This document shows, piece after piece, positions 1 through 16,593 of a DNA stretch of 37,882 nt; the stretch's first letter is position 1, and each line of letters starts with the position of its first letter. The position numbers and the translations under genes were made by a program. Source of the DNA: a virus. Location: positions 1-37,882 of the IMG/VR virus record IMGVR_UViG_3300023223_000311; one strand, written 5' to 3'. The notes below the pieces were generated by a model. That model did not search any database. It was not told where the DNA came from and saw only the letters and a list, made by a program, of their open reading frames with translations.

Positions 1-144
1 CCAGTTGAAGGCCCAAAGGGACTGATAGTAGGCTCTACTCCAACCACAATATCAATATCCCAGATGGTTAAATCTTTATACTGTCCACTGACTTGTTCGC
101 TCGCACCGTTACCGCCTAATAGAATCTCATCATAAGTACCGGTT
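1..144. repeat. Terminal direct repeat, left copy
   Basis: This segment is identical to the last 144 bases of the window. The same reading frame passes through both copies, and joining them gives one uninterrupted gene. It is either the end overlap of an assembled circular genome or a short true terminal redundancy; sequence alone cannot separate the two. Confidence 0.97.
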
Positions 145-1991
145 AATTGAGTGCCTGTTAGTGACCCTGGGGCAATAGGTGTTTCATCGATCGAAACCGT
201 TTGTGTACTTGCTGTCCCCGCCGCACCTAAGACCCGAGTAAATGCCGTCCTGCTGGGTTGAATGCTGGTTTGCTGGCTGTCATTTGAGTATTGGTAATCA
301 AAACCCGCGCCCTGTCGCCTGAGGTCGTTGTCTGCACTAGCACCGGTTAATTTTATTAAATTACCCGTATCAGACATTGCCGCAGCACCCTGAAAGCTAA
401 TACCCATTGACATATTAGCACTGGTAGCTGGTACGTTATCAGCCTGAAATACAACATCTTCTCTTACTCTACTGGCGGAAGCGCCCGCGACAGGAACAGG
501 GAAAGTAGCCTCTTCGTTATGCTCTAGTTGATTTAGGCAAAATTGGCACTTTGAGCCTAAAGGCACTCTGATTTGCAAATTATCATTAAGACCCGCAGCG
601 ATATCTTCAGCTAAAACCTGATCAGTGGTTGTATTTGTAAACGTCACAGCACCCGTAGCTGTAGAATTAACCCTTAATATTGAGTTAACTCCGGTAATAA
701 ATCCAAACAAAGACAAAGCAACGTCACCTGCGGCGAAATTATCGGCATCAATATCTAAAATAGCCTCTCCGGACCCACCTAAATCATTATCAATCTCGTA
801 CATCACTGTACTGACTGCCGATATCTTAGCGGGGAGATTTGTAGTAATTGAGTTGAGCGCTGCACTGACATTGCCCGTTAAGGTCATTCCTGCCTGGTTA
901 TCTGTGGCATTATGATTAGTACAGAGGTTGGTGGTTTGCTTTTCGCGCAATAGCGCAACATCCTGAAATCTGGCCTCTAGCAACGCTTTATACCTCAGCA
1001 GGCCTGAAGTAGTGGGGAACGTTTTTAAATTACCGCTCTCATCAGGCCCTATGGCCGCACCATTACGGACAAAAGTAACAGCGTTCAATCCCTTTAAAAC
1101 CTGAAGGCTTGTGTCTAAAGGGGTGTAGAATTGTGCGCTATCAGGGATTCCGCCTAACGCTAAAGGTTCTTCGAGAATACTTAAATCGTTTGCAACGCCT
1201 GGGAATGGGTTGACGGATACCCATAACTGACCATTGATAAACTCAATTCCTCTAGGTTTATCCAGGGTATCAACTGAAGAGCCTGCTTGCTGGATGTCGT
1301 ATTGCTGGATGCGTTCTTTTGTGATCCAGTCCATTGAGTTGATGTTTTGATTAGAAACGTCTCCGGCACCGGTACCATCGAAACTAATCGCATAGACTGT
1401 AGTGCCTGTATTGGCCAATCCATACCCTGCGCCCACTATCGTGAATGTAAGGTCTGGAGAGCCTGAATAAGCGCCACCTGTTGTAAAATTCGGTGTGTAT
1501 TCGTAGATATCAAAATCATTTGAAGCGCTGCCAACATCCGCTACCAGAAACACACCGGTATTAAGAATGGTTAAGGCGGCGGGGTTAACGTCTACCGTGG
1601 CATCCGGTAGCTGAACAAAGTCAACAAAATCATACTCTTGATTACCAACATTCCAAATCAACTTCCACAGACCGGCTGTATTACTTCCACCTTGGAAATT
1701 ACTCATTACGTAGAGATGATTATCATTGGTGTTATACGCTACCGATTCAATCTCTGCGGCGTCATCGGCTGTAGAAGTGTCCACTGTCCCTACAGTACCG
1801 ACAAAATTAGCCTCGGTCAGGGTTTGGAGTGGAGTTGATGTGTCGGAAAGCGCCGATGCTACAAGGGCAGTACCGCTGGCATCATCAACTTGTACCAAGA
1901 CATTAGCGTCTGGATCAAAGGCGATAGATTCACACTTACCCTGATTGGATGATTTTGACTCTTTGAATATTAGAAATTGATTTAAAGCCAT
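1..1991 (-). CDS. Tail-fibre or minor structural protein, N-terminal 663 codons (gene continues across contig junction)
   Basis: Reading leftward from ATG at 1991, the frame stays open to base 1. It continues after circular joining from 37738 to a TAA at 37687, for 680 codons in all. The start overlaps the stop of the preceding gene (TAATG), implying coupled translation. The N-terminal third has recurring beta-strand-and-turn blocks ('SIAFDPDANVLVQVDD', 'VAYNTNDNHLYVMS', 'PAALTILNTGVFLVAD'), reminiscent of a beta-propeller. The middle contains a short Cys pair (CQFC), and the rest is rich in G, T, S and N as in phage fibres. It is the first large gene of the late operon. The tail or fibre role is inferred from composition and position; no named family was recognised. 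Confidence 0.85.
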   Translation of the reverse strand, partial: MALNQFLIFKESKSSNQGKCESIAFDPDANVLVQVDDASGTALVASALSDTSTPLQTLTEANFVGTVGTVDTSTADDAAEIESVAYNTNDNHLYVMSNFQGGSNTAGLWKLIWNVGNQEYDFVDFVQLPDATVDVNPAALTILNTGVFLVADVGSASNDFDIYEYTPNFTTGGAYSGSPDLTFTIVGAGYGLANTGTTVYAISFDGTGAGDVSNQNINSMDWITKERIQQYDIQQAGSSVDTLDKPRGIEFINGQLWVSVNPFPGVANDLSILEEPLALGGIPDSAQFYTPLDTSLQVLKGLNAVTFVRNGAAIGPDESGNLKTFPTTSGLLRYKALLEARFQDVALLREKQTTNLCTNHNATDNQAGMTLTGNVSAALNSITTNLPAKISAVSTVMYEIDNDLGGSGEAILDIDADNFAAGDVALSLFGFITGVNSILRVNSTATGAVTFTNTTTDQVLAEDIAAGLNDNLQIRVPLGSKCQFCLNQLEHNEEATFPVPVAGASASRVREDVVFQADNVPATSANMSMGISFQGAAAMSDTGNLIKLTGASADNDLRRQGAGFDYQYSNDSQQTSIQPSRTAFTRVLGAAGTASTQTVSIDETPIAPGSLTGTQLTGTYDEILLGGNGASEQVSGQYKDLTIWDIDIVVGVEPTISPFGPST

Positions 1992-2191
1992 TATTCCACC
2001 ATGTTGATTAAACCAGCAAATTCAGCGCCAATAGCACCAAGGAATGCGGTTGAAAGGATGATTATAGCGCGAATGAGTATTTTAGACACCATACTATTAC
2101 GACGGAGTATCCTTGCGGCTGCTCTCCGTTTCTCAGGCTCCATATCTTCCGTTATAGCCTCAATTCCAATTTCAGTATCATCACCGTTCAC
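1991..2191 (-). CDS. Small membrane protein
   Basis: This 66-residue protein has an acidic N-terminus (MNGDDTEIGIEAITEDME), a basic stretch (EKRRAAARILRR) and one hydrophobic helix near residues 40-62 (ILIRAIIILSTAFLGAIGAEFAGLI). The positive residues before the helix suggest N-in topology. Its start lies 11 bases inside the end of the preceding gene, and its stop shares one base with the next start, so it is tightly coupled in the late operon. Function unknown. Confidence 0.75.
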   Translation of the reverse strand: MNGDDTEIGIEAITEDMEPEKRRAAARILRRNSMVSKILIRAIIILSTAFLGAIGAEFAGLINMVE

Positions 2192-2384
2192 TTTCCGCTC
2201 GCTTGATATTGACTCTCAACTTGTGGCGAACTTGCTTGTATCGCACAGGGATATAGCATACGCCCTCATCATCTTCAAATTGATTAGTAGGGTATTCCCC
2301 CTCGTATATGAGATACTTAGATCTTATTTCCTCATCCATCGGAAGCTCGTCACGATTAAGAACGTCCTCTTTTGTGAATTCCAC
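2181..2384 (-). CDS. Hypothetical protein, first gene after the late promoter
   Basis: This 67-residue charged protein begins with GTG at 2384, because an in-frame TAA lies two codons upstream. A purine-rich GGGG stands about 7 bases ahead of the start. It has no membrane segment or recognised motif; the C-terminus is basic (KQVRHKLRVNIKRAESER). It is the first coding sequence downstream of the promoter at 2414-2442. Confidence 0.7.
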   Translation of the reverse strand: MEFTKEDVLNRDELPMDEEIRSKYLIYEGEYPTNQFEDDEGVCYIPVRYKQVRHKLRVNIKRAESER

Positions 2385-2413
2385 GCTTTACCCCATATTT
2401 ATCCATGGAATCT

Positions 2414-2442
2414 ATTATAGCGCAGTTCATAGAGGGTTGTAA
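2414..2442 (-). promoter_or_regulatory. Candidate late promoter (sigma70 type)
   Basis: On the minus strand it has a -35 TTACAA (2442-2437), a 17-base spacer and a perfect -10 TATAAT (2419-2414). It sits in the only sizeable gap ahead of the long leftward structural region and just after the stop of the 2460-2960 gene. Transcription from here would cross the contig junction into the terminase, capsid and tail genes. Confidence 0.75.
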
Positions 2443-2448
2443 TTAGGG

Positions 2449-2466
2449 GTTCAACCCGTTCAACCC
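2449..2466 (-). repeat. Tandem 9-bp repeat upstream of late promoter, candidate activator site
   Basis: The plus-strand 9-mer GTTCAACCC occurs twice head to tail (2449-2457 and 2458-2466). Each unit contains the near-palindrome GGTT-AACC. The pair lies about 40-60 bases upstream of the predicted late start site, next to the -35 box, where an activator would bind. It overlaps the stop codon of the neighbouring gene. The role is inferred. Confidence 0.5.
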
Positions 2467-2960
2467 TTAATGGTTTTGCAGTGATCAAGCCATTTAGCCT
2501 TATCGCCAGCATCAAGGAATGGCTTGACCATCTTTAGAGTAATCATTGCGTTATGGTAATAAGTCACTCCTTCGCCATTTTTACCCCATAAATCTGTGAG
2601 CCCAAAGCAATTAGCAAGTGCCCGAATTGTTGCCCCATGCGCACCTTTTAAGACTTCTTCCCCGTGAGCAAAAATCCAATCGAGGTTTGACTTCATATCC
2701 GCTTCATTTTTGGCTTCTGCCTCCCATTGCTCCAGCAGATCTAATCTATTTGCCTCAATTAGCTCTAGTTGCGGCTCGTGATACCATGATACCTGCCCGC
2801 ACCCTTTAATATGGATACAATATGAGTCAATATCACCGCCTCCATATTCTTCGCTGTAGGTGTACATAACTATCGCCTCACAGTCACTTTCAAAATGGCT
2901 CATCATTGGCCCTAAATCCTTCGCTACTTGTACATGATCGCCTTTATTGTATTTCTGCAT
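2460..2960 (-). CDS. Hypothetical protein, 166 aa
   Basis: It starts at ATG 2960 behind a strong AAGGAG. Residues 1-65 look like a small beta domain (KGDHVQVAKDL, then EAIVMYTY and YCIHIKG), possibly SH3-like. Residues 70-95 form a charged helix. The C-terminal half is alpha-helical and ends in a segment rich in aromatic and Lys residues (YYHNAMITLKMVKPFLDAG). No catalytic motif was recognised. It is the last gene of the small-gene block that begins at 5285. Function unknown. Confidence 0.8.
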   Translation of the reverse strand: MQKYNKGDHVQVAKDLGPMMSHFESDCEAIVMYTYSEEYGGGDIDSYCIHIKGCGQVSWYHEPQLELIEANRLDLLEQWEAEAKNEADMKSNLDWIFAHGEEVLKGAHGATIRALANCFGLTDLWGKNGEGVTYYHNAMITLKMVKPFLDAGDKAKWLDHCKTIKG

Positions 2961-3017
2961 ATCTATTCTCCTTAAATTAGTTTGTTTGCTTAGTGTCTAA
3001 AGCCCTACCTAAGTAAA

Positions 3018-3293
3018 TTACTCGGACAATATTACCGATGCCGGGCCTACTTGCTCGCCCATAAGCGTATTAAAACCAGCTATATAGTGAAGTGAATCGT
3101 GAAGCGCTCTAGATTCTTCAGCCATTCTCTGACACAAAACAACGGCGTACATTGGGTTATGCCCGCACTGATCAGGATGGCAGCAGCCGCCACAAACAGA
3201 GCATCCCTGTGACTCAGTACCATCTATTTTTTGCTGTCTCGCTAATTGAAGATGCTCGATAGCTTTATCGTAATGCGCAACTGTAATTTCCAT
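3018..3293 (-). CDS. Cys-rich hypothetical phage protein
   Basis: I chose ATG 3293 because GGGG lies 9 bases ahead of it. Upstream in-frame Mets at 3302 and beyond have no spaced ribosome site and overlap the preceding gene. After an N-terminal helix, residues 30-45 carry a dense cysteine/histidine cluster (CSVCGGCCHPDQCGH), probably metal-binding. A helical LHDSLHYIAGF region follows. Small phage proteins with a similar HPDQCGHN patch exist, but I know no function for them. Confidence 0.75.
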   Translation of the reverse strand: MEITVAHYDKAIEHLQLARQQKIDGTESQGCSVCGGCCHPDQCGHNPMYAVVLCQRMAEESRALHDSLHYIAGFNTLMGEQVGPASVILSE

Positions 3294-3294
3294 C

Positions 3295-3609
3295 CTATTC
3301 ATCCCCTTTAAGTGTGTTAAGCGCCGCCCGAAACTGCTCAATATACTGCTCTTGCGAGCTGCCCCATGAGTTAACTAAGCATTCTTGCTCTGGCTCATCA
3401 TCTGGATAGTCTTCATCAGGCTCGCCAGCAACCATAAAAAACTCGCGCTCAACTGCGTGTAGATTTTCAGAAAATCTCTTACAGTTACCTATATTGACCT
3501 TTAGGCAGCTGGCTGGTACTTTTTCACCAATACCAAAAATATCCGCAATTTCATTCAATAGGCTTTTTGCTTGGCCCTCTGACATTTCATTAATTGAAAT
3601 ATTGCTCAT
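3295..3609 (-). CDS. Hypothetical acidic protein
   Basis: This 104-residue acidic protein starts at ATG 3609, just after a GAGGGTTAG purine-rich stretch. A helical N-terminus (MSEGQAKSLLNEIADIFGI) is followed by a highly acidic segment (EPDEDYPDDEPEQE) near residues 58-72 and a C-terminal helix (YIEQFRAALNTL). Its stop overlaps the start region of the next gene. Function unknown. Confidence 0.75.
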   Translation of the reverse strand: MSNISINEMSEGQAKSLLNEIADIFGIGEKVPASCLKVNIGNCKRFSENLHAVEREFFMVAGEPDEDYPDDEPEQECLVNSWGSSQEQYIEQFRAALNTLKGDE

Positions 3610-3612
3610 TAT

Positions 3613-3687
3613 CTAACCCTCTTTGATTAATTTTTTAATTTCATCTTTGCTTGTTGCCTCGCCTAACTTGTTTCCTTCTGGACTCAT
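3613..3687 (-). CDS. Possible 24-residue ORF in a 127-bp gap
   Basis: The gap between the 3737 and 3609 genes contains a frame ending at TAG 3613 that reads like a real domain (QPIYIVMSPEGNKLGEA, then SKDEIKKLIKEG). Its only in-frame ATG is at 3687 and would remove the first half. A better-placed ATG, just after the preceding stop, is in another frame. Possible explanations are a non-ATG start, a -1 shift, or a decayed gene. Confidence 0.35.
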   Translation of the reverse strand: MSPEGNKLGEATSKDEIKKLIKEG

Positions 3688-3736
3688 TACTATGTAAATA
3701 GGTTGATCAGTGTGAGGCAGCGTGTCCTTGTTTGTT

Positions 3737-3967
3737 TCATTTCCACCCCTCGGGTATGGGCTTGTCTATCCCTTCAAAATCAAACTCCGACCACTGGGAA
3801 TAGCATTTATTTGACACAAACATTATAAACTGGGCATCAAGTACAAATTGCCCACTTGTACAATGTAAATTAGATTCGTCGTAGTCACACTCGGTTATCT
3901 GTGTATCATCTGGCAAATCTTTTGTAAGCTCTCGAAAATGTCCCAAAGTTAACGTTTCTCTTCTCAT
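3737..3967 (-). CDS. Hypothetical protein, 76 aa
   Basis: The protein is compact (MRRETLTLGHFRELTKDLPDDTQI at the N-terminus), with two Cys residues in CDYDESNLHC and a tryptophan-containing tail (WSEFDFEGIDKPIPEGW). The 'T...F.E..KDLPDDT.I' opening resembles other small phage or plasmid proteins of unknown role. Its start overlaps the stop of the Cys-rich gene upstream by four bases. Confidence 0.75.
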   Translation of the reverse strand: MRRETLTLGHFRELTKDLPDDTQITECDYDESNLHCTSGQFVLDAQFIMFVSNKCYSQWSEFDFEGIDKPIPEGWK

Positions 3968-4173
3968 CGTTCTGCCTCTCTCTTTAGCCCTGCTAGCTCG
4001 CTCCGGTCTCTCTTAATACTTGTTGTTAAAACTTGTATCCGGTCATTACGCTGTTTGATTTCATCCTTAGACTTCTTATTGCAGTACGGGCGACCACAAT
4101 GTGTCTTGCAACTACAGCATGACATTCCACAATGGCAGACAGATAAGCAGTATCTAATTGGCGGCTTTCTCAT
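3964..4173 (-). CDS. Very cysteine-rich small protein, candidate metal binder
   Basis: Nine cysteines and three histidines fall within residues 8-31 (YCLSVCHCGMSCCSCKTHC and then YCN). A basic helical or coiled-coil C-terminus follows (KDEIKQRNDRIQVLTTSIKRD). The spacing is metallothionein-like but matches no family I can name. It overlaps both neighbours by four bases, in a translationally coupled chain. Binding zinc or another metal is inferred from cysteine density. Confidence 0.75.
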   Translation of the reverse strand: MRKPPIRYCLSVCHCGMSCCSCKTHCGRPYCNKKSKDEIKQRNDRIQVLTTSIKRDRSELAGLKREAER

Positions 4174-4355
4174 AGTGCCTCCTTGCTAAAAGGGCACTCT
4201 GTAGCTGCCGCCTCTATTCTCACTGTTAAGTGATCCCGTAGCTTGGTCATACACTCCATAGCTTGATCGAAAGACAGGTCACCGCTGTGCACTTCGCAAG
4301 TCACCACGCCACTATTCAGCGTTACTGTTGCCTCAATCTTAAACTTGGTATTCAT
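4170..4355 (-). CDS. Hypothetical protein, 61 aa
   Basis: The start at ATG 4355 has a strong AAGGAG seven bases upstream. The predicted fold is two beta strands (KFKIEATVTLNSGVVTCEVHSG) followed by a helix (FDQAMECMTKLRDHLTVRIEAA). The pattern resembles small single-domain phage accessory proteins. No function assigned. Confidence 0.75.
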   Translation of the reverse strand: MNTKFKIEATVTLNSGVVTCEVHSGDLSFDQAMECMTKLRDHLTVRIEAAATECPFSKEAL

Positions 4356-4383
4356 ATTATCTCCTTAATTAATAATCATTTAA

Positions 4384-4464
4384 TTAAATATAAGTAGCCT
4401 GAACTATTTCATCATCCCAGCGCTCACCGTTTAAATACGTGGTGGGGTGCATATCCTTAATCAT
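4384..4464 (-). CDS. 26-residue microprotein
   Basis: The start codon overlaps the TGA of the ribbon-helix-helix gene (ATGA). The frame encodes MIKDMHPTTYLNGERWDDEI followed by VQATYI and a TAA. Tight coupling favours translation. The following 28 bases carry the ribosome site of the next gene. Function unknown. Confidence 0.45.
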   Translation of the reverse strand: MIKDMHPTTYLNGERWDDEIVQATYI

Positions 4465-4616
4465 TTAGCTTTGGCTTTGGCGGCCTCTGCGTCAGCAAGA
4501 TACGCTTCTAGCGCTTTCTCTAAATGCCACGTGAAGGTATAGGGAGGGGTTGTAATTCGGTCTAACCGCTTGGATAGCTCAATGTCGAGCCTGAATGTTC
4601 TGCTTACTTTAGTCAT
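4461..4616 (-). CDS. Ribbon-helix-helix (Arc/CopG-like) DNA-binding protein
   Basis: This 51-residue protein has an N-terminal beta strand (VSRTFRLDIEL), then SKRLDRIT, a loop, and helix FTWHLEKALEAYLADAEA. This is the strand-helix-helix order of small Arc/MetJ/CopG-type repressors that bind DNA as dimers through the strand. AAGGAT precedes the ATG. The start overlaps the stop of the Gly-rich gene upstream. It is a candidate regulator of this block or of the late promoter; the target cannot be inferred. Confidence 0.6.
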   Translation of the reverse strand: MTKVSRTFRLDIELSKRLDRITTPPYTFTWHLEKALEAYLADAEAAKAKAK

Positions 4617-4912
4617 ATCGTATCCTTTAGCCATTCGTCTGTTTCTTCTTGAAGCTCTTCGCGGATAGTGGGTTTAGCTTTGGGCTTTGACGGCTCAAAC
4701 TCTCGACCCTGATAAGGCGCGGCGCCCTGACCTTGAGCGATCTGCCCCAGACCAGCAAGACCGCCAAGACCGCCAAGACCGCCAAGGAGGCCCTGCTGCT
4801 GAAAGGGGTCTCCAAACGCCTGCTGCTGTCGCAATCGAGCCATATCTGAAGCACTCCGCATCTCAAGCGCGCTCCTTAGAGCCCTATCATGATCAGCCGT
4901 TCCTCTAGCCAT
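4613..4912 (-). CDS. Gly/Leu/Gln-rich hypothetical protein
   Basis: I chose ATG 4912 because AAGGGTGA lies seven bases upstream; an earlier in-frame GTG lies inside that site. The centre has a low-complexity run of GGL units (residues about 41-55) flanked by Gln-rich patches (RLRQQQAFGDPFQQQG and IAQGQG). The tail is acidic and helical (IREELQEETDEWLKD). In DNA the repeat is a 9-base CCGCCAAGA unit. It may be a linker or scaffold; no function recognised. Confidence 0.7.
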   Translation of the reverse strand: MARGTADHDRALRSALEMRSASDMARLRQQQAFGDPFQQQGLLGGLGGLGGLAGLGQIAQGQGAAPYQGREFEPSKPKAKPTIREELQEETDEWLKDTI

Positions 4913-5285
4913 TAATATCACCCTTCAGCCTTGCGGTTACATTAGGTAAGCGCTCAAGAATCTGGCCGTACATTTCTTTCATGTTCGTCACTTCTGTCTG
5001 CAATCGGTCTTCCATTTTATCGCGGTATTCATCCTTAACTTCAGCAACAGCCTTATCCTTAGCCTGCTCACACTCCATTTCCTTTTTCTTCAGCTCGATC
5101 ACGCCAGCTTCCTTGGACATTTTAACCATGTGCTTAATGTCCTCATCTTCCATTTTTTTCTTGTGCTTCACCTCTGCCAGCTCTTCTTTGGCGCTGGTGG
5201 CTTCTTCCTTGAGCTTTTCAATCTCAACCTCTAAGTCGTTCTTAGTTGTTTCTAACTTGGCAATTTTCTTCTTTGTGTTAAACAT
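4905..5285 (-). CDS. Coiled-coil protein, 126 aa
   Basis: It starts at ATG 5285 behind AAGGAG. Residues 5-110 are an almost continuous heptad-patterned charged helix (KIAKLETTKNDLEVEIEKL, later KEELAEVKHKKKMEDE and MEDRLQTEVTNMKEMYGQI). It is the first gene of the leftward block from the promoter region near 5306-5340. Its length and charge would suit an oligomeric or nucleic-acid-associated role, but nothing specific is supported. Confidence 0.75.
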   Translation of the reverse strand: MFNTKKKIAKLETTKNDLEVEIEKLKEEATSAKEELAEVKHKKKMEDEDIKHMVKMSKEAGVIELKKKEMECEQAKDKAVAEVKDEYRDKMEDRLQTEVTNMKEMYGQILERLPNVTARLKGDING

Positions 5286-5305
5286 ACTCTTTCTCCTTGT
5301 GGGTT

Positions 5306-5340
5306 TTCATACATTGTAATACCTGTATTGACAATAGCAA
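5306..5340 (-). promoter_or_regulatory. Leftward promoter for the 5285-2460 block
   Basis: Two overlapping minus-strand readings are plausible. One is TTGTCA (5334-5329), 17 bases, TATGAA (5311-5306). The other is TTGCTA (5340-5335), 16 bases, TACAAT (5318-5313). The second has the better -10. The TTGTCA box is the complement of the TTGACA used by the rightward promoter, so the two promoters face apart on shared DNA. Confidence 0.5.
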
Positions 5341-5356
5341 GATTTAATTGTACTAT
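5328..5356 (+). promoter_or_regulatory. Near-consensus rightward sigma70 promoter for the structured RNA
   Basis: A perfect -35 TTGACA (5328-5333), a 17-base spacer and TACTAT (5351-5356) predict a start near 5363. No credible coding sequence follows for 1.1 kb; what follows is the chain of nested inverted repeats. This is one of the strongest promoters in the window by consensus. Confidence 0.8.
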
Positions 5357-5362
5357 CTGCCT

Positions 5363-6290
5363 TAATTAGTTGATCGAGCATAGTAAACATAAAGAGCGTT
5401 TGTGCAGGGATGCTACAGAGCCCATGCCAATACTCTTTGGTTTACAGATATTATTAACGGTATGCAGCATCCTATTTACTTCACTGAAGGTGGATCAGAC
5501 CCAGCCCTGCACTTATCACTGCTTTATCCGCGCTCTAACGTTATTAATAATATAGGTCTTAAATATTTAGCCTGGATAACAGTTGCGTTTTCACCAGTGT
5601 CAATTGTTACTGCGTCTAATGGACTGGGAGATGTTATAGGTTGAGAGTGCTGGCGGCTCATATCGTTTTTCAGCGCTCGCGGGTCACAATCGGCATAACC
5701 TGATTCTCAGGGCTTCCTCTCGCTTGCAAGAGGCAACACTCTCACCTATAGCATCTCGGTAGGCGTACCTAAAGTAATTAGGAGGATGTGCTAAGAGGTG
5801 ATTATCCAAGGGTGTTTCACCGAAGCTACGCACCGCCCATTAAATGGTTTTCTCTCTCAACACACCCACATAATTACTTTAGGTAGACAGAATCTGTATT
5901 CGGAATGACACAAAGTAGCAGGCCCGACTGACCTTTTTTACTCCGGCTTCTCACCTTGATTGGCACTAAATAATCTTAGCTCAAGGTTGTATGTGTCACT
6001 TCAAATACAGACTCAGGAAGGCTTAAAGGAGGGATTGTGTCTGAGGCAGGTCTTTAATCGGCGATTTTAATCTGATCTCTCAGAATCCGAACCTTCAGAC
6101 ACAAAAAAGGGCCAATATGTACAAGCCCTAACAGTTGGGGCGGAAATAACAGATATTTGGTAGTATTTACCTTACCTGTTAAAACCTGTACATATTAACC
6201 CTTTCTGCTATTTCCTATCAGCGCTACCAAACGCCTACAAGCACCATCATAGTATTAAACAGTTAAGTGTTCAAGCTGTTTGTGTACTAT
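5363..6290 (+). ncRNA. Candidate large structured noncoding RNA (about 0.9 kb)
   Basis: No supportable gene lies here; the stretch is a chain of closed helices. Pairs seen are 5391-5396/5433-5438, 5448-5457/5544-5553 (10 bp), 5577-5585/5601-5609, 5630-5649/5737-5755 (19 bp, one bulge), 5766-5780/5871-5885 (15 bp perfect), 5893-5912/5992-6011 (about 18 bp), 6035-6051/6091-6104 (14 bp), 6109-6123/6187-6201 and 6249-6262/6276-6290. Several enclose two smaller hairpins, giving three-way junctions: CCTGA-TTC-TCAGG at 5699, TCTGA-TCTC-TCAGA at 6071 and a 7-bp hairpin at 6125-6141. G-T mismatches in the helices (5582/5604, 5634/5751, 6129/6137) are G-U in a rightward transcript and A-C in a leftward one, supporting the plus strand. 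The 3' end is unresolved. GOLLD- or ROOL-type phage RNAs are the nearest known analogues, but identity is unproven. Confidence 0.7.
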
Positions 6291-6295
6291 TAACC

Positions 6296-6367
6296 CTTAT
6301 CCGCCTTATTGGGGTCTATTGGGGCTTATCCTCCCGTAGCTCTCCGCGAATACTCCGATAGCTCTCC
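6296..6367 (+). repeat. Phased short direct repeats (iteron- or operator-like)
   Basis: TATTGGGG occurs at 6307 and 6317, exactly 10 bases apart, and is flanked by CTTATCC at 6296 and 6325. TAGCTCTCC occurs at 6337 and 6359, 22 bases apart. The one- and two-turn spacing puts the copies on one DNA face. They lie between the RNA region and the promoter for 6473, so they are candidate regulator or replication-initiator sites. Confidence 0.45.
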
Positions 6368-6379
6368 ACCATATAAAGT

Positions 6380-6400
6380 TGGGCGGAAAGTTTTCGCCCA
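6380..6400 (+). terminator. GC-rich hairpin, possible transcript end
   Basis: The stem TGGGCGGAA/TTTCGCCCA has 9 bp with one G-U pair and a triloop. It is followed by GAATAAG and a TA-repeat palindrome (GTATATATAC, 6407-6416) rather than a U-tract, so intrinsic termination is uncertain. It may instead be an RNA 3'-end stabiliser or part of the control region for the genes that follow. Confidence 0.35.
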
Positions 6401-6438
6401 GAATAAGTATATATACATCAGAAGGTTAAGGCTGTTTG

Positions 6439-6447
6439 TGTTATAAT
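6439..6447 (+). promoter_or_regulatory. Extended -10 promoter for the 6473 gene cluster
   Basis: TGTTATAAT is an extended -10 element (TGn plus perfect TATAAT) 26 bases before the first start codon. No good -35 is present, as is typical for extended -10 promoters. The same TGTTATAAT string occurs at 14462-14470 and upstream of the capsid gene. Confidence 0.6.
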
Positions 6448-6472
6448 TTATGTTCAATTACTGGAGATATTT

Positions 6473-6763
6473 ATGACGACCGGACGACACTGGAGTGATT
6501 GCGCTCAACATAATATGCCAGCCATGCCAAACGGCCCTTGTGATTGTGGGGCTGATGCCCCTGATCCAGCAGAGCCAAAAGGGATGATTGAGGTATTCCT
6601 AGAGGCGACCGAGGTAAATTTAATCGGCAACCTGCTAGCGAATATCAGGAAAGAAGTACCAGAGGGCCTTGATCCTACATTTTACCATACCTTAAACTAT
6701 AAAAAAGAATGTGAGCTAAAAGGCATGGCCGACGAACTAGCAGAAAAACTGGGGATAGGTTAA
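6473..6763 (+). CDS. Hypothetical protein with CDCG motif, 96 aa
   Basis: It starts at ATG 6473 behind CTGGAG. The N-terminus has a Cys/His cluster (CAQHNMPAMPNGPCDCG, residues 10-26) that recurs in small phage proteins of unknown role. The rest is acidic and helical (MADELAEKLGIG). Its stop shares a base with the next start (TAATG). It is first in a short rightward cluster downstream of the structured RNA. Confidence 0.75.
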   Translation: MTTGRHWSDCAQHNMPAMPNGPCDCGADAPDPAEPKGMIEVFLEATEVNLIGNLLANIRKEVPEGLDPTFYHTLNYKKECELKGMADELAEKLGIG

Positions 6764-7038
6764 TGGGTGATGTCGTTACTTTAGTGCAGCCGGATGATTT
6801 CAAAGGTTGCACGTATTTCGACACTAGACACAATCATATCGGTTTAAAGATGCGCGATGACTCTTTGGGAATACTTAGGGAGCCAGAAGGCAAGTTTAGA
6901 TTTGTCCTGAATGGCAATTCAAACCTATATAGCCGAGAGGAATTAGCAGAATTTATCCACACAGCCTCAGTTTTAATTGACGATGAACAGCGATGGATGC
7001 CAGAAGGTAAGCTTGTAGCCTGTAATTACTTTGATTAA
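6763..7038 (+). CDS. Hypothetical protein, 91 aa
   Basis: The start is coupled to the upstream stop. The pattern is mostly beta (GDVVTLVQPDDFKGC, then HIGLKMRDDSLGILRE and KFRFVLNGN), ending with a helix (REELAEFIHTASVLID). No motif identifies a function. Confidence 0.75.
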   Translation: MGDVVTLVQPDDFKGCTYFDTRHNHIGLKMRDDSLGILREPEGKFRFVLNGNSNLYSREELAEFIHTASVLIDDEQRWMPEGKLVACNYFD

Positions 7039-7066
7039 CAGCCCCTTATTCAATAGAGAGAATATA

Positions 7067-7234
7067 ATGACTAGATGGCAAAAGAAATCAGCCGAACTTG
7101 AAGCAAAAGTGAGAGAAGGGGTTCGGCTCCTTAAGATTGAAGATCCTGAGAAGTACCAGCAGTTAGTTGACGCCAGTCAGGCACTGTATGACGGCTTTGT
7201 GCGCATGAGATTTGAAGAGGCTAAAGGCTTATGA
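7067..7234 (+). CDS. Small helical protein, 55 aa
   Basis: I chose ATG 7067 with AGAGAG eight bases upstream, rather than a TTG at 7031 that overlaps the preceding gene. The protein is a charged two-helix hairpin (WQKKSAELEAKVREGVRLLK and YQQLVDASQALYDGFVRM). Function unknown. Confidence 0.7.
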   Translation: MTRWQKKSAELEAKVREGVRLLKIEDPEKYQQLVDASQALYDGFVRMRFEEAKGL

Positions 7235-7287
7235 AATACACATCATGCAAGATAGGGCACGGTAAGGATGGATGGGAAGATCGTTAA
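7231..7287 (+). CDS. Possible 18-residue microprotein
   Basis: The ATG overlaps the preceding stop (ATGA) and encodes MKYTSCKIGHGKDGWEDR before TAA. The end overlaps the converging gene at 7284 by four bases. Only the coupled start and the lack of a gap support it. Confidence 0.3.
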   Translation: MKYTSCKIGHGKDGWEDR

Positions 7288-7496
7288 ATATGAATCTTAT
7301 TAAACGAACTATTACCCATTGTCTTCAAAGCTTTGGAAAGACGCTCATCAGAACTTTTACCGGCCTCTATCAGCTCGTTAATCCAATCCTTAACCAATCC
7401 ATCCTCCATATCATTTAAAGCCTCAGAGCGCGCCACATGGAGCTTAACACCCGCTACCGCCTTATCCAGAAACTCTTTGCTGAATGTATTTGCCAT
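7284..7496 (-). CDS. Hypothetical protein, 70 aa
   Basis: An alpha-helical protein (FSKEFLDKAVAGVKLHVA, then GLVKDWINELIEAGKSSDE and RLSKALKTM). An AGAGGCC purine stretch precedes ATG 7496. It is the last gene of the leftward block from 11123 and converges on the 6473-7234 cluster. No function recognised. Confidence 0.7.
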   Translation of the reverse strand: MANTFSKEFLDKAVAGVKLHVARSEALNDMEDGLVKDWINELIEAGKSSDERLSKALKTMGNSSFNKIHI

Positions 7497-7520
7497 TTTT
7501 GTGGCCTCTTATAAGAGTGA

Positions 7521-7718
7521 TTAAACATCAAAACCAAGGCACGTAGCACAACCTACCGGCGAGTCTGGATGCCCTGAAGCAGCGTGCAAATCATCAATAT
7601 CAAAGATTCCCTTGCACCCCATACAGCGAGCTTTACCATCAGGAACACCGGAAAATACATCGTCAATCATACTTCCGATATTGTTATTCATCCTTTCAAT
7701 TGGGTCTGGAATATACAT
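7521..7718 (-). CDS. Zinc-ribbon-like small protein
   Basis: Two CxxC pairs (CMGC near residue 32 and CATC near residue 57), separated by about 21 residues and flanking HAASGHPDSPVG, form a likely four-Cys zinc knuckle. The N-terminal half is polar. GAGGC lies before the ATG. It may bind nucleic acid or protein; no family recognised. Confidence 0.7.
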   Translation of the reverse strand: MYIPDPIERMNNNIGSMIDDVFSGVPDGKARCMGCKGIFDIDDLHAASGHPDSPVGCATCLGFDV

Positions 7719-7753
7719 TTTACATGCCTCTTTAGTGGTGATAGGTGTTATGA

Positions 7754-7951
7754 TTAATCCGATTGAGATAGCGCATCAAGAGCCACACAGCCAGATTTAC
7801 CCGTTATCCATGCCACATCAGTACCAAAATTATTAGGCTCTGGCTGGATAGTCTTAATTATATGCTGGGTGCTAGTGATAGGCCCTTGCGGGTTGATAAT
7901 AGAGTGATAATTAACTACATCGCCACACTTAAAACCTTTTATTTCTTTCAT
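7754..7951 (-). CDS. Hypothetical protein, 65 aa
   Basis: It opens with a beta-type KGFKCGDVVNYHSIINPQGP segment, similar in style to the small SH3-like barrels of phage accessory genes. A second beta region follows (GTDVAWITGKSGCVALDAL). AAGAGG precedes the ATG. Function unknown. Confidence 0.7.
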   Translation of the reverse strand: MKEIKGFKCGDVVNYHSIINPQGPITSTQHIIKTIQPEPNNFGTDVAWITGKSGCVALDALSQSD

Positions 7952-7990
7952 TCTATTTAACCTCTTTTATCTGTTTAACCCCTTACTGCA

Positions 7991-8623
7991 CTATAAGCCC
8001 AGGGATAGTTGATTAATGGTGGATGGATTAACCTGGGTAGCTGATTCAAATACATGTAAGCCAAGGTCTGGATGAACGCAATTCCTTAATAGTTTATCCG
8101 TTCGGTCTTGGAACTCGTAACCATCGATATTAATACCCAGCACCCGCTGCCAGTCTTCGCGCTTACCGCCCTGAATATCCACGTTATCGGATTCAAAATA
8201 GCCAATATGGTAATTAGCCCAAAAGTAATGCCGGTCAAGAATAGCAGCCGGTTTCCGTAATTCTTCATAGTATGGCTCGACATTCTCAACCACCCATTGA
8301 CCATCAAAGAATTTCTCTAAGAATATAATTTCCTGATATAATCCAAGCTCTGGATATTCCGGGGGATAACGACCACCCTTAGACGCCCAATACCTGGGCC
8401 TTGAATGAGTTGGGCAAGGATAGGAAGACCAGATAGAATCGAACTCCCGGTAATGATCGAGCAAATATTGATGGGCATCACCAACAACTACAGTATCCTG
8501 GGGGTATTGATCTTGATAGAATTGGGCAATATCTTCACGATACTCAACGGCAGTAACTTCGACATAATCTGGCCATTTCTTACGATTGCCTCCAAGACCA
8601 CTGTATAAATTCAGAACCTTCAT
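7991..8623 (-). CDS. DNA (cytosine-5) methyltransferase
   Basis: It would transfer a methyl group from S-adenosylmethionine to cytosine C5 in DNA. With ATG 8623 the protein has 210 residues. It shows the SAM-binding motif I (LNLYSGLGG, 4-12), the catalytic Pro-Cys loop (SYPCPTHSRPR, Cys70) and the ENV motif (VVENVEPYY, 111-119). It is shorter than typical bacterial C5 enzymes (over 300), so the target-recognition region is reduced. ATG 8623 overlaps the upstream stop (ATGA), which favours it over GTG 8632. No cognate restriction nuclease is nearby, so it is probably a solitary phage enzyme protecting against host restriction. Sequence specificity is unknown. Confidence 0.85.
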   Translation of the reverse strand: MKVLNLYSGLGGNRKKWPDYVEVTAVEYREDIAQFYQDQYPQDTVVVGDAHQYLLDHYREFDSIWSSYPCPTHSRPRYWASKGGRYPPEYPELGLYQEIIFLEKFFDGQWVVENVEPYYEELRKPAAILDRHYFWANYHIGYFESDNVDIQGGKREDWQRVLGINIDGYEFQDRTDKLLRNCVHPDLGLHVFESATQVNPSTINQLSLGL

Positions 8624-8805
8624 ACCACCCACCAGCTAATAATCCACACCACAACCCCACATACACCCGCATAGACGATTAACCCTAAAGTTCCGCTATT
8701 TGTACACCAATCTGTGAAAAGCCAGTATTTAGCCCTTACAGCGTCCCAGTGAGCAATAAGGATGCCAGATAGGCCGAATAGGAATAGATAACCGAGAGTT
8801 GTCAT
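8620..8805 (-). CDS. Two-helix membrane protein, 61 aa
   Basis: Hydrophobic helices lie at residues 3-19 (TLGYLFLFGLSGILIAH) and 40-60 (LGLIVYAGVCGVVVWIISWWV), joined by a polar loop with one Cys. It overlaps the endonuclease stop and the methyltransferase start by four bases each. The size and topology would fit a small holin or accessory membrane protein, but it is far from the lysis cassette. Function unknown. Confidence 0.7.
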   Translation of the reverse strand: MTTLGYLFLFGLSGILIAHWDAVRAKYWLFTDWCTNSGTLGLIVYAGVCGVVVWIISWWVV

Positions 8806-9353
8806 TGTTTGATCATCCCGTGGTTTGGGTGGTATCCGTACTTCTTCTCCGCTTCTTTCCTTGCTTTTATCGCGTCATCAATCAGGTCGAAATGCCCAAG
8901 ACTTACCTTTTTCCCCTTCACTCCTATTATTGCGTACCACTTACCGGAAGGCTTGCAGAGATAAACCCCGGAATGCCCGCTGCTATTATTTAACTGTAAC
9001 GGTCTGTTTCTCGTATTTTCGCTTTCTGTGACGTTCCGAAGATTTGACATCCTATTATTTGTTCCGTCGCCGTCGATATGATCAATAATCAGCGGCCACT
9101 CCCCGTGAACATACAGCCATGCAAGTCGGTGAGCCTTATAAGCAAAGCCATTAACTCGAATGTCTATATATTTTGTTCTGCCGCGCTGGGGAATTACAAT
9201 CCATCCGGCCTCAAGCCCCTTAACTTTTCTAGTGCCTCTATTCATCAGCCATACAAGAGCACCAGTGTTTTCGTTATAAGAAAAAATGGCCTTTAGTTCC
9301 TGCTGACTGATCGCTTTTTCTTTGCGATTGTCTCTAGTCCATTTATCACCCAT
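8802..9353 (-). CDS. HNH homing endonuclease with AP2 DNA-binding domain
   Basis: Free-standing endonuclease of the HNH_3/AP2 type, which cuts DNA and spreads its own gene. Residues 17-70 form the NUMOD-like/beta N-terminus (YNENTGALVW). The HNH core is at 75-106 (HRLAW, DHIDGDGTNNR, NLR), with His92 and the Asn residues of the fold visible. The AP2 domain follows at about 127-172 (SGHSGVYL, KWYAIIGV, LGHFD, AIKARKEAEKKYG). AGAGGGAA precedes ATG 9353. It sits between small phage genes with normal overlaps, so it is an established insertion. Confident in family. Confidence 0.9.
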   Translation of the reverse strand: MGDKWTRDNRKEKAISQQELKAIFSYNENTGALVWLMNRGTRKVKGLEAGWIVIPQRGRTKYIDIRVNGFAYKAHRLAWLYVHGEWPLIIDHIDGDGTNNRMSNLRNVTESENTRNRPLQLNNSSGHSGVYLCKPSGKWYAIIGVKGKKVSLGHFDLIDDAIKARKEAEKKYGYHPNHGMIKQ

Positions 9354-9356
9354 ATT

Positions 9357-9638
9357 CTATTCCCTCTCTTGTGTGGATAACATGGCTTTAATGGCGCAGG
9401 TTAACGCATAGGTTTTTGGATAGCTTTTACCGCTACGCCCTAACCCTGATGCCAAGCTCGCCGCAGTGAATGCATAATTAAAGGCGTCCTGCTCAGCCTC
9501 TGTAGGATTGGCAGAAATCAATACTTTGCCCTCGAATGCTTCATTGATAAGTGCCTCGACATCAGTTAACAAAACAACCACATTCCAGTTATCTGCATCA
9601 AAGCTCTTTGCTTCAAGCTTCTTGATTAGCTCATTCAC
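9357..9638 (-). CDS. Hypothetical protein, 93 aa
   Basis: GTG 9638 has TTGGAG nine bases upstream. The upstream TTG at 9653 is that ribosome site itself. The protein is helical, with an Ala-rich C-terminal half (DAFNYAFTAASLASGLGRSG) and an acidic middle (LLTDVEALINEAFEG). Its stop lies four bases before the endonuclease start. No motif recognised. Confidence 0.7.
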   Translation of the reverse strand: MNELIKKLEAKSFDADNWNVVVLLTDVEALINEAFEGKVLISANPTEAEQDAFNYAFTAASLASGLGRSGKSYPKTYALTCAIKAMLSTQERE

Positions 9639-9873
9639 TGGGGAGCACTCCAAGATAGTGATAGCGTAAGTCGTCCTTATCTGATAAGTAACGGGCCCTT
9701 ATTGATTCAAGTCGTTTGCCGTTATCGATCATGGCAGCCTTCATCATTGGCACACTTTTACTTCTCTCTGCCTTGCGCCACCCTATCCGGTATTGATGGC
9801 TACTTTCATTGCATCGAATGCAGTATTCGCGATGAGTAATAAACAGCATTATAAAATATTTGATTCGTTTCAT
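9631..9873 (-). CDS. Hypothetical basic protein with short hydrophobic N-terminus
   Basis: It opens with MKRIKYFIMLFITHREYCIRC, a very short hydrophobic stretch after positive charges. A basic helical region (GWRKAERSKSVPMMKAAMI) and a charged C-terminus follow. GGAG precedes the ATG by eight bases. It could be membrane-associated, but the segment is short for a spanning helix. Function unknown. Confidence 0.7.
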   Translation of the reverse strand: MKRIKYFIMLFITHREYCIRCNESSHQYRIGWRKAERSKSVPMMKAAMIDNGKRLESIRARYLSDKDDLRYHYLGVLPSE

Positions 9874-9894
9874 TCGGCTTTCTCCATGGTATAA

Positions 9895-10251
9895 TTACTT
9901 CTTAAACAAGCTGATTAGTTTGGGTTCTGACACTTCGACATCTTCAATAGGCGGAAGGTTTTTAACTTCGCCGGTTGATACAGCAATTAAAGCTCTAGCC
10001 ATTAGATCGGTTTCAAAGCTGGCTGACAGAACGTTCATTATTTTATTGGGTAGCTCGGCCTTCATCTCTACGCTCATCTTGTCGAAATCAACACAATGCA
10101 GAGCATTCAAGACTTTGTAATCAGGATGAGATCTAGGATTAGTCCCGATTAAATTGGCAAGCTTATCGACATCGCATATAGAGAAATGCCCGCTATCATT
10201 AAGCATTTTATCCAGCGCTATTCGTATTGTTTCTTGTTTAAATTCGTCCAT
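9895..10251 (-). CDS. Hypothetical helical protein, 118 aa
   Basis: ATG 10251 is preferred because AGAGAGGA is spaced nine bases before it; the upstream ATG 10260 abuts that site. The predicted protein is alpha-helical (FKQETIRIALDKMLNDSGHF, VDKLANLIGT, VEMKAELPNKIMNVLSAS). No catalytic residues stand out. It stays in the leftward accessory block. Confidence 0.7.
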   Translation of the reverse strand: MDEFKQETIRIALDKMLNDSGHFSICDVDKLANLIGTNPRSHPDYKVLNALHCVDFDKMSVEMKAELPNKIMNVLSASFETDLMARALIAVSTGEVKNLPPIEDVEVSEPKLISLFKK

Positions 10252-10283
10252 TCTGCTCATTCCTCTCTGTATTACTATAGGTG

Positions 10284-10478
10284 TTAATCAATAGGGGCAA
10301 ATTCCCACCAGTCTTTCACTGCTCCATATTCAATTAATTCATCTATGGCATTATCAAGATTAGGATTTCCGTAAGACCTTTTTTGTTGTGCAGCTTCACG
10401 TTTTCTATAACGCTTTAGCTTCTTGATCATGCTTTCAATAGCGGGCTTATCTTCTTCAGTGATTGGTGCTAGTGCCAT
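10284..10478 (-). CDS. Small basic helical protein, 64 aa
   Basis: The first part is a lysine/arginine-rich helix (ESMIKKLKRYRKREAAQQKR), plausible for nucleic-acid contact. An acidic helix and a tryptophan pair (VKDWWEFAPID) follow. AAGGAC precedes the ATG. Function unknown. Confidence 0.7.
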   Translation of the reverse strand: MALAPITEEDKPAIESMIKKLKRYRKREAAQQKRSYGNPNLDNAIDELIEYGAVKDWWEFAPID

Positions 10479-10504
10479 TGTATTAGTCCTTATAGTTAGA
10501 TAGA

Positions 10505-10786
10505 TTAAGCAGGGTTAAGATTCATTCCAGAACTATAAAAAACATGCCATACAAGGCCGCTATCCATAAGTACTGAATCAAGATAGTGATAGCCGTACAT
10601 GTCCAATTCATGCCCCGTGCCTACAATTACAATCTGGCCGGTCATGTTTTCCGAGTAGGTATCAACTTGCGCCCACAAAAATAGCGAACCGTTTTGCTCA
10701 GCAACTTTAAGGATCGTGTGATCTTCTGGCAGTGTAAATTCCTGAGTGCCGGTAATGTCTAGTGGGTATTTGTAGATTACTTGCAT
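10505..10786 (-). CDS. DUF7352-like phage protein
   Basis: The 93-residue beta-rich sequence fits a common small phage family: YKYPLDITGTQEFTLPED, then ILKVAEQNGSLFLWAQVD, IVIVGTGHELD and a terminal GLVWHVF. Members occur in early regions of many tailed phages and have no known activity. The start overlaps the end of the Cys-containing microprotein gene. Family assignment is from pattern memory. Confidence 0.65.
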   Translation of the reverse strand: MQVIYKYPLDITGTQEFTLPEDHTILKVAEQNGSLFLWAQVDTYSENMTGQIVIVGTGHELDMYGYHYLDSVLMDSGLVWHVFYSSGMNLNPA

Positions 10787-10902
10787 AATTTAATTCCTTG
10801 TTGTTGATTAGTTGCCTTGATGCGGTCACAGGTTTTAGTGAATTGGCACCTTTTCACTCTTGGTTTAACGTAATGGTCAGCATTGTTTCTTGGCCACTTC
10901 AT
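10777..10902 (-). CDS. Small basic Cys-containing protein, 41 aa
   Basis: ATG 10902 lies three bases after the stop of the regulator gene. The frame encodes MKWPRNNADHYVKPRVKRCQ, then FTKTCDRIKATNQQQGIKLC and K. Cys residues are at 19, 24 and 40. It overlaps the next start by ten bases. The high charge and tight packing support a real gene of unknown function. Confidence 0.55.
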   Translation of the reverse strand: MKWPRNNADHYVKPRVKRCQFTKTCDRIKATNQQQGIKLCK

Positions 10903-10904
10903 AA

Positions 10905-11123
10905 TCAAATCTTCTCGTAGCGGTATTTAATAGCTCTAACCGGCCTTAGCTTCATTTTCTTTAGTATCTTTGTGCCCGGTAATTCGCGAGCGCAAATGAC
11001 GTTATCGATAAAGGCTCTGGTGACATCGAAATGTTTAGCTGCTGACTTACTACCACCTAGACGCTTAACTTCTTTCTCGAAGTTTTTTAGAAACTGTTTG
11101 GTTGAAATACTCTTATCTTTCAT
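10905..11123 (-). CDS. HTH-like transcriptional regulator (Cro/CI-type candidate)
   Basis: ATG 11123 is chosen because AGGAG lies eight bases upstream; an upstream in-frame start at 11171 would include the promoter. The 72-residue basic protein has a helix-turn-helix-like region near 20-45 (EVKRLGGSKSAAKHFDVTRA followed by FIDNVI), like small phage repressors. It is first in the leftward block and faces the rightward early genes across a control region, as Cro or CI genes do. Which of the two roles it plays cannot be told. Confidence 0.65.
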   Translation of the reverse strand: MKDKSISTKQFLKNFEKEVKRLGGSKSAAKHFDVTRAFIDNVICARELPGTKILKKMKLRPVRAIKYRYEKI

Positions 11124-11146
11124 AAAGTGCTCTCCTGTAGATTCGA

Positions 11147-11175
11147 ATACTATACTAAAAGCAATATCCAAGCAA
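11147..11175 (-). promoter_or_regulatory. Leftward promoter of the regulator gene
   Basis: TTGCTT (11175-11170), a 17-base spacer and TAGTAT (11152-11147) on the minus strand lie just ahead of the regulator's ribosome site. The 8-bp palindrome ATTCGAAT (11141-11148) overlaps the -10 and could be an operator half of the switch. Confidence 0.5.
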
Positions 11176-11207
11176 GGACTAAACCTAAATTAATTTCGTA
11201 TAAGTAC

Positions 11208-11236
11208 TTGCATTAGTTTTTAAATGGGTATACCAT
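11208..11236 (+). promoter_or_regulatory. Rightward early promoter with palindromic operator-like sites
   Basis: TTGCAT (11208-11213), a 17-base spacer and TACCAT (11231-11236) precede the rightward recombination and lysis genes. Two 8-bp palindromes lie in or beside it: AAGTACTT (11202-11209), overlapping the -35, and GGTATACC (11227-11234), overlapping the -10. That is where a repressor would block polymerase. Confidence 0.5.
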
Positions 11237-11280
11237 CTATCTCAACACTAACGCAATAACTCAAACCAAAGGATACGATT

Positions 11281-11346
11281 ATGAATAGCAAGAAAGCAAA
11301 ACTACTACGCAGAATGGCCCGCTCATCAACTGACCCCTATGTCTGA
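11281..11346 (+). CDS. 21-residue leader peptide, or gene interrupted by TGA
   Basis: AAAGGA precedes ATG 11281 at good spacing. The frame reads MNSKKAKLLRRMARSSTDPY then V before TGA at 11344. After the TGA the same frame stays open for 27 more codons (GQPLVCDGRNKPTTRLIAGK and on) to TAA at 11428. The product is either a leader peptide with a structured downstream region or a 49-codon gene carrying an in-frame stop. The N-terminus resembles small basic phage early proteins. Confidence 0.5.
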   Translation: MNSKKAKLLRRMARSSTDPYV

Positions 11347-11354
11347 GGACAGCC

Positions 11355-11414
11355 GCTTGTCTGTGATGGTCGAAACAAGCCCACTACCCGCTTAATTGCG
11401 GGCAAGTCGGTAGT
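11355..11414 (+). promoter_or_regulatory. Nested hairpins in the early leader
   Basis: CCCGC (11387-11391) pairs with GCGGG (11398-11402) around a 6-base loop. ACTACC (11383-11388) can pair with GGTAGT (11409-11414). Just upstream GCTTGT (11355-11360) pairs with ACAAGC (11375-11380). No U-tract follows. This could be attenuation or RNA-stability control, or simply coding sequence if the TGA at 11344 is read through. Confidence 0.35.
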
Positions 11415-11431
11415 AACTATTGGAGAATAAA

Positions 11432-11578
11432 ATGATTAAGCAGCATCAAGTAAAAACAGACATCGACGCAGAAATTGACGACTGGAAACGTAGCGAAGAG
11501 TTTGACAATCTTCCTCACGGTGAAGAGCTATTGGCAGACTTTGAAGATGAGCGGAAGGGGTATAGAGATGAAGCTTGA
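11432..11578 (+). CDS. Acidic small protein, 48 aa
   Basis: TTGGAG precedes ATG 11432. The protein is highly acidic (KTDIDAEIDDWKRSEEFDNL, then GEELLADFEDERKGYRDEA), with no membrane segment. Its end overlaps the next start by 11 bases. The acidic character could suit a DNA-mimic inhibitor, but that is speculation. Confidence 0.65.
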   Translation: MIKQHQVKTDIDAEIDDWKRSEEFDNLPHGEELLADFEDERKGYRDEA

Positions 11579-11759
11579 AATTGATCCAGTCTGTGAGGCA
11601 AAGATACGCCGCTACCAAGAAATAATTGATCACGGCAACGTAGAAGATGACGGTATTTACAAAGAGCTTTGCGAGGCCGCGTTACTTGTTGCCGGGTCAG
11701 TGGGGGCAAAACTTTCATCACATGATATGCATAAACGCATGGGGCTAGAGAATGAATAG
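11568..11759 (+). CDS. Hypothetical protein, 63 aa
   Basis: The start at ATG 11568 follows GAAGGGG by seven bases. The sequence is helical (EAKIRRYQEIIDHGNV, then YKELCEAALLVAGSVGAKL) with two Cys. It overlaps neighbours on both sides, typical of coupled early genes. Function unknown. Confidence 0.65.
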   Translation: MKLEIDPVCEAKIRRYQEIIDHGNVEDDGIYKELCEAALLVAGSVGAKLSSHDMHKRMGLENE

Positions 11760-11910
11760 CGACGAGTATCTAAAAGGGATGCGTGATTGTAAAGACGGTA
11801 TTCCTCATCAGCCTGGAATGTCACAAGATTATAACGATGGCTATGCGGCTGAATATGAGCGCCAAGAAGTACTAACTGTAATGAGTGATTGGGGAATGCT
11901 ATGCCAGTAA
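11752..11910 (+). CDS. Small conserved-type phage protein, 52 aa
   Basis: Frame ATG 11752 to TAA 11910 encodes MNSDEYLKGMRDCKDGIPHQ, then PGMSQDYNDGYAAEYERQEV and a tail. The 'Y.KG..DC.DG.PH..G.S.DY..GY...Y' pattern recurs in short proteins of lambdoid and related phages, with no known function. Eight-base overlap with the preceding gene and ten with the annealing protein gene. Confidence 0.65.
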   Translation: MNSDEYLKGMRDCKDGIPHQPGMSQDYNDGYAAEYERQEVLTVMSDWGMLCQ

Positions 11911-12494: not shown

Positions 12495-12594
12495 ATGTTG
12501 CGGCGCAGAAGCCGGAGAGTATGAAGATGTGGGTATATGCCCTGATTGCAAGGAGCATTGTTCATGGGTTGATGATGAGGAAGAAGAAGTATGA
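12481..12594 (+). CDS. Zinc-finger-like microprotein, 37 aa
   Basis: ATG 12481 lies inside the end of the annealing protein gene. The product has a Cys-Cys near the start (SECCGAEAGEYEDVGICPDC), then KEHCSWVDD and an acidic tail of four Glu. The CC/CxxC/HC cluster suggests a single zinc site. Its TGA overlaps the next ATG. Confidence 0.6.
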   Translation: MLISECCGAEAGEYEDVGICPDCKEHCSWVDDEEEEV

Positions 12595-13108: not shown

Positions 13109-13144
13109 TATAACTTCCTCGCATCTTTAAACTTGGAGAATAGA

Positions 13145-14094: not shown

Positions 14095-14095
14095 A

Positions 14096-14494: not shown

Positions 14495-14531
14495 CACACC
14501 ACTTCCATCAAAAGCTGCAAAGGAGCCTAAG

Positions 14532-15447: not shown

Positions 15448-15458
15448 GAGTAACGATC

Positions 15459-16582: not shown

Positions 16583-16593
16583 AGGGGTAAGAA

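Follow-up and report, generated by a model that had tools for sequence, protein, structure and literature searches.

To our knowledge, only a few giant ornate RNAs have been described so far. One of them, GOLLD, rises during phage lysis. Loop-loop contacts within a phage RNA are found in phi29 pRNA, a 174-nt molecule that multimerises by kissing loops and is known only from phi29-like phages. GOLLD is of phage origin, combines two domains with a variable linker that sometimes carries a tRNA, and assembles into a cage of 14 (PMC12286853); a mycobacterial GOLLD contains a pseudo-tRNA (PMC6582537). ROOL likewise forms cages (PMC12286853), and the Vibrio cholerae phage ICP1 produces an abundant, unclassified ncRNA of 800 nt (PMC7567579). 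The locus described here lies in an IMG/VR phage record of 37,882 bases whose virion genes are of T7 type; the whole record is referred to below as the window. As judged from its letters and those of its relatives, a gene-free kilobase of this record encodes a large, elaborately folded minus-strand RNA. That it represents a new structured phage RNA family appears near certain, and the family most likely adds another class to the giant ornate RNAs of phages, one that parallels GOLLD and ROOL but shows no detectable homology to either.

Between positions 5363 and 6290 the longest stop-free run spans 83 codons, matching the shuffled mean of 84, and neither the open reading frames nor this comparison revealed credible coding potential, so the stretch is gene-free as originally predicted. 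The dense closed helices of that prediction were equally borne out: long inverted repeats fill the region, three helices enclose further hairpins (5890-6014, 5766-5885 and 5628-5757), and folding, named as a test in the original prediction, surpasses shuffled controls on both strands (z −6.2 on the plus strand, −8.9 on the minus strand). The prediction went astray over orientation, having started a plus-strand RNA at 5363. Fold scores, homologues and covariation instead delimit a minus-strand gene of ~855 nt at 5385-6239, with both ends estimated, the start at ~6239 from the promoter and the end at ~5385 from helix P10. This span folds with a z of −8.6 on the minus strand versus −5.0 on the opposite one. 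Across the 20-bp core of helix P3 in 35 members, the minus-strand reading gives 118 G-U versus 5 A-C oppositions, a bias that assigns the RNA to the window's minus strand. A plus-strand RNA from 5363 is ruled out by the G-U bias, the fold energies and the position of the promoter.

A consensus scan places the putative RNA promoter at 6246-6274 on the minus strand, with TTGAAC as the −35 box (6274-6269), a 17-nt spacer and TATGAT as the −10 box (6251-6246). TTGAA and TATAAT boxes sit at the matching place, just upstream of hairpin P0, in most homologues, whose promoter scores average 10.8 versus 8.6 (sd 1.1) at random sites. Sequence comparison thus shows a sigma-70-type promoter conserved ahead of the RNA. 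The plus-strand promoter originally proposed, a near-consensus TTGACA-17-TACTAT at 5328-5356, does exist but sits at the opposite end and on the opposite strand to those required; it is directed into the RNA gene across the 3′ end and could drive an antisense transcript or the plus-strand genes from 6473. On the minus strand, a promoter-like TTGCTA-16-TACAAT occupies 5313-5340, just upstream of a coiled-coil gene (5285-4905), which suggests that the next operon is apparently not transcribed from the RNA promoter alone.

The 5′ domain is built from helices P0 to P3, all on the minus strand. Hairpin P0 (6220-6235) pairs 6235-6232 with 6223-6220, and its loop takes part in the kissing helix P1 (6155-6232) as the 5′ strand: 6232-6224 (GUUUGGUAG) meets 6163-6155 (CUACCAAAU), joining the P0 loop to the apical loop of P3. 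In one subgroup (L109, L216 and L140), the P1 partner lies inside the loop of a CCUC...GAGG hairpin. The pseudoknot helix P2 (6142-6215) pairs 6215-6204 (GGAAAUAGCAGA) with 6153-6142 (UCUGUUAUUUCC). Helix P3 (6106-6204) spans 29 bp between 6204-6176 and 6134-6106, with 29 of 29 pairs formed on the minus strand when G-U is included, and is followed by the conserved UUUUUUGUGUCUG. By sequence comparison, this arrangement is a conserved double pseudoknot: the apical region of P3 pairs with the P0 loop, through P1, and with a second strand, through P2.

Covariation among homologues, a check put forward with the original prediction, proved very strong. A covariance-model alignment of the 5′ domain from 41 sequences has 97.4% of its cells paired and 197 double-change cells versus 49 in shuffles, although it was fitted to the model and thus favours covariation somewhat. 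Double changes occur in 20 of its 22 modelled pairs, and in P0 all five modelled pairs change on both sides. The covariation score is 0.770 versus 0.264 when shuffled and at most 0.18 with partners slid, the slide controls guarding against the inflation that comes from partly related carriers. Two further tests are independent of this alignment. For P1 and for P2, the own-versus-cross pairing value was reached in 0 of 10,000 partner permutations, with the best-pairing segments used as arms in own and in cross comparisons; for P3, where best-pairing segments were taken for own only, the pairing score is 15.3 for own and 3.4 for cross arms. P1 appears across members as GUGAGAG/CUCUCAC, GUGGAAG/CUUCCAC, UUUGGUA/UACCAAA and others, and every position of P2 shows three or four Watson-Crick pair types. 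The family thus has the marks of a structured RNA: helices that covary beyond controls and a G-U bias that favours one strand.

The middle of the RNA is variable. P5 (6035-6104, GUGUCUGA/UCAGACAC; z −4.2) and P6 (5890-6014, GAGUCUGUAUU.../...AAUACAGAUUC, enclosing two hairpins; z −5.4) are minus-strand arms with variable inserts. In the homologue L131 the same P5 helix forms the acceptor stem of a tRNA-Val predicted there, and the P6 insert can contain tRNA-like sequence in homologues. Two lineage-variable modules on the same strand come next: P8 (5766-5885; z −6.2), with a 32-nt closing helix and inner hairpins, and P9 (5628-5757; z −6.5), with a long closing helix and several inner hairpins. 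In its general layout the family has a 5′ domain, a 3′ domain and, between them, hairpin arms that one to three tRNA genes can replace. T-arms are enriched ~100-fold inside the RNA span (0.445 versus 0.0043 per kb), and ARAGORN finds tRNA-Arg(TCT), tRNA-Leu and tRNA-Val within the span of some members. The embedded tRNA genes often look intact, and several have an encoded CCA (Seahorse, vB_VaM_H2 and 1.085.O). Several members carry tRNA genes in the span, whereas the window and most others do not, and of 35 members 25 lack a T-arm there. Since many members, including the window, have no recognisable tRNA, the central role of the RNA may not be to carry such cargo.

Comparison among members placed the 3′ domain (5391-5538, minus strand), which is composed of P10 and P11 with an GCGGAUAAAGCAG motif between; the window's own fold gives no guide here, as this domain alone scores no better than chance (z −1.2). 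P10 (5536-5531 AGAGCG with 5398-5393 CGCUCU) closes the domain, and P11 pairs 5512-5505 with 5409-5402. In 16 members, whose arms were chosen manually and then verified with a script, P10 covaries (0 of 10,000 permutations). The likeness of the window's UAUGCUCGAU to the 3′-domain motif of L140 was judged a coincidence, P10 being elsewhere.

A blastn search of related-phage records yielded one weak match (G007, E 9.5e-5), whose locus (L080) keeps the same helix order in different letters; a match in G018 is an ordinary terminator hairpin. The shared motif GCCYTTTTTTGTGTCTG led to 78 viral stretches, on which a P3 test separated the family (72-100% paired) from background (at most 69%). Further patterns, among them a relaxed one for P5, added at least six members (L207, L216, L229, L231, L301 and L332); a pattern built on the P3-loop consensus gave no matches. 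Distinct homologues number about 40. R1, a covariance model of the 5′ domain, matches all 39 carrier records tested, many of them outside model building (E 1e-6 to 1e-27), and non-training homologues match at E 1e-5 to 1e-24. Only one carrier is a close capsid relative of the window and the others differ, so the RNA crosses phage groups. By a hand count that treated records as circularly permuted where needed, RNA and terminase share a strand in 25 of 28 records.

Cultured phages are among the carriers. R1 detects the RNA in Vibrio phages NF (V. alginolyticus; E 5.6e-25) and 1.122.A (E 1.1e-20), in Pseudoalteromonas phage H105/1 (E 5.3e-16) and in phages 1.240.O, 1.242.O and 1.110.O (E 4e-9 to 3e-8), of which 1.240.O bears tRNA. 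It also finds Vibrio phage Seahorse (E 1.3e-6), in which tRNA-Trp, Arg and Gly separate the two domains, 1.085.O (E 2e-4), with tRNA-Trp and Arg, and vB_VaM_H2 (E 0.017), with tRNA-Met and Arg. BS5 (E 0.008) and BT-1011 (E 0.023) have weaker scores, and the position fits. A blastn search with the NF RNA reached 35 Vibrio phage records, some through the 3′ domain or promoter only. The family is widespread in marine phages, cultured Vibrio and Pseudoalteromonas phages included, with RNAs of roughly 500-860 nt. The locus is either an unannotated gap in cultured phages or annotated as tRNAs only. In Seahorse (L348:2480-3220), vB_VaM_H2 (L349:2480-3180) and 1.085.O (L350:1690-2420), the 5′ and 3′ domains flank the annotated tRNAs; tRNA clusters annotated in phages may thus conceal RNAs of this kind. 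In Vibrio breoganii phages (L344, L345, L350 and L354), a conserved stretch (AACACTTCGGAAAAACC...AAACACTAAG) separates the RNA from the gene downstream.

Outside these phages, the searches returned no members. The P3 test showed all 38 pattern matches in GTDB genomes to be chance occurrences or ordinary terminators, and no copy was found in the plasmids searched. Neither the model nor DNA comparison found prophage copies in 197 Vibrio genomes, a weak negative as few candidates were scored per genome. A record that shares a neighbouring gene with the window (L004) has no RNA at that place or elsewhere, and a 15-bit match in G005/L339 was not accepted as a member.

The comparison with GOLLD, ROOL, HEARO and OLE that was suggested with the original prediction returned no credible match to known giant RNAs. 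The GOLLD model RF02032, which covers a conserved region of 416 positions, matched 0 of 33 records (the window and 32 carriers) at E ≤ 10. The ROOL model RF03087 gave no credible match in the same number of records, its one 33-nt, 5.6-bit hit being a chance match outside the RNA. Against Rfam 15, the window produced nothing at gathering score, OLE and HEARO included, and nothing credible at E ≤ 10; a full scan of 12 homologues returned tRNA only. The proposed likeness to GOLLD and ROOL as a giant ornate phage RNA is supported. As to the suggestion of a new class or a divergent member, the former is supported, Rfam recognising nothing but tRNA in homologues. No earlier description was found in the literature on GOLLD, ROOL and large phage RNAs, mostly open-access papers, and the family is apparently undescribed.

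Resemblances of architecture are nonetheless close. Like the new family, GOLLD is a giant protein-free phage RNA with 5′ and 3′ domains and a variable linker that sometimes bears a tRNA, and is often near tRNAs (PMC12286853; PMC6582537); its model covers neither the 5′ double pseudoknot nor the P10/P11 domain. ROOL, too, is a giant RNA of phages or prophages that contains pseudoknots and occurs close to tRNAs (PMC12286853), but its model finds no credible match here. The ICP1 ncRNA is comparable in being ~800 nt, unclassified and in a gene-free gap (PMC7567579). However, R1 finds no match to it, which rules it out as a member, and ICP1 has no tRNAs. The gene-free ICP1 gap at L337:10098-11108 appears to hold this abundant 800-nt RNA.

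We propose that the RNA would serve as a trans-acting RNA scaffold while the phage grows lytically. It would probably self-associate through loop-loop contacts in the style of GOLLD and ROOL, and its swappable middle may carry tRNAs or tRNA-like elements as cargo, which is at times true of the GOLLD linker. We give this reading as a whole, a new phage RNA family acting as a trans scaffold with a tRNA-carrying middle, a probability of about 0.5; the trans-acting, GOLLD-like role taken singly, which is argued by analogy, falls a little short of an even chance. A more specific version is tentative and rather less likely than not: an independently evolved cage or scaffold RNA with an exchangeable socket in its middle that accepts one to three functional tRNAs, which the RNA delivers, stores or protects during infection. 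The strongest competitor turns this relationship around and makes the 5′ and 3′ domains a leader and trailer that shield the tRNAs or time their processing, with tRNA-less arms as relics. The one to three tRNAs between the domains of Seahorse, vB_VaM_H2 and 1.085.O, several with CCA, and the acceptor stem that P5 itself forms in L131 speak for such a cassette. Yet the 5′ domain is under the same selection in the 25 members without a T-arm, and the pseudoknot is far too elaborate for what a leader needs, making a tRNA-protecting cassette unlikely.

Other roles would tie the RNA to its neighbours. A cis-acting leader, attenuator or riboswitch-like, could control the small same-strand genes that follow the RNA, which usually shares the terminase strand; we consider this improbable because those genes vary (a phosphatase in NF, a methylase in 1.122.A and vB_VnaS-L3, hypotheticals elsewhere) and the next gene in the window has the promoter-like site at 5340-5313. 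Proximity to terminase genes, at most ~3 kb downstream in NF, Seahorse, vB_VaM_H2 and BT-1011, recalls a packaging RNA working with terminase, as does the multimerisation of phi29 pRNA through kissing loops. This we regard as very improbable, since the distance reaches ~15 kb, three records have RNA and terminase on opposite strands, and size and fold are unlike pRNA. Richness in inverted repeats, which also occur in mobile elements, might indicate a DNA-level feature such as a repeat element, an origin or recombination hairpins. The RNA-strand signature of 118 G-U versus 5 A-C, the covariation of crossing helices and the conserved promoter already contradict that idea and leave it almost no credence. 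The same layout without detectable homology, and with tRNAs swapped in, suggests that such RNAs arose in phages on more than one occasion to serve a tRNA-linked purpose. As members occur in culturable, small-genome Vibrio and Pseudoalteromonas phages, expression, structure and deletion phenotype are directly testable.

Elsewhere in the window, no DNA polymerase was recognised among the open reading frames scanned at 1-17800, where the early genes are small and mostly unknown except for NinG at 14702-15265. One minus-strand frame (7991-8632) matches C-5 cytosine DNA methylase (PF00145) over only its first ~78 residues. It adjoins a minus-strand HNH/AP2 homing-type endonuclease frame (8802-9353), and the pair may represent a gene that a homing element has split.
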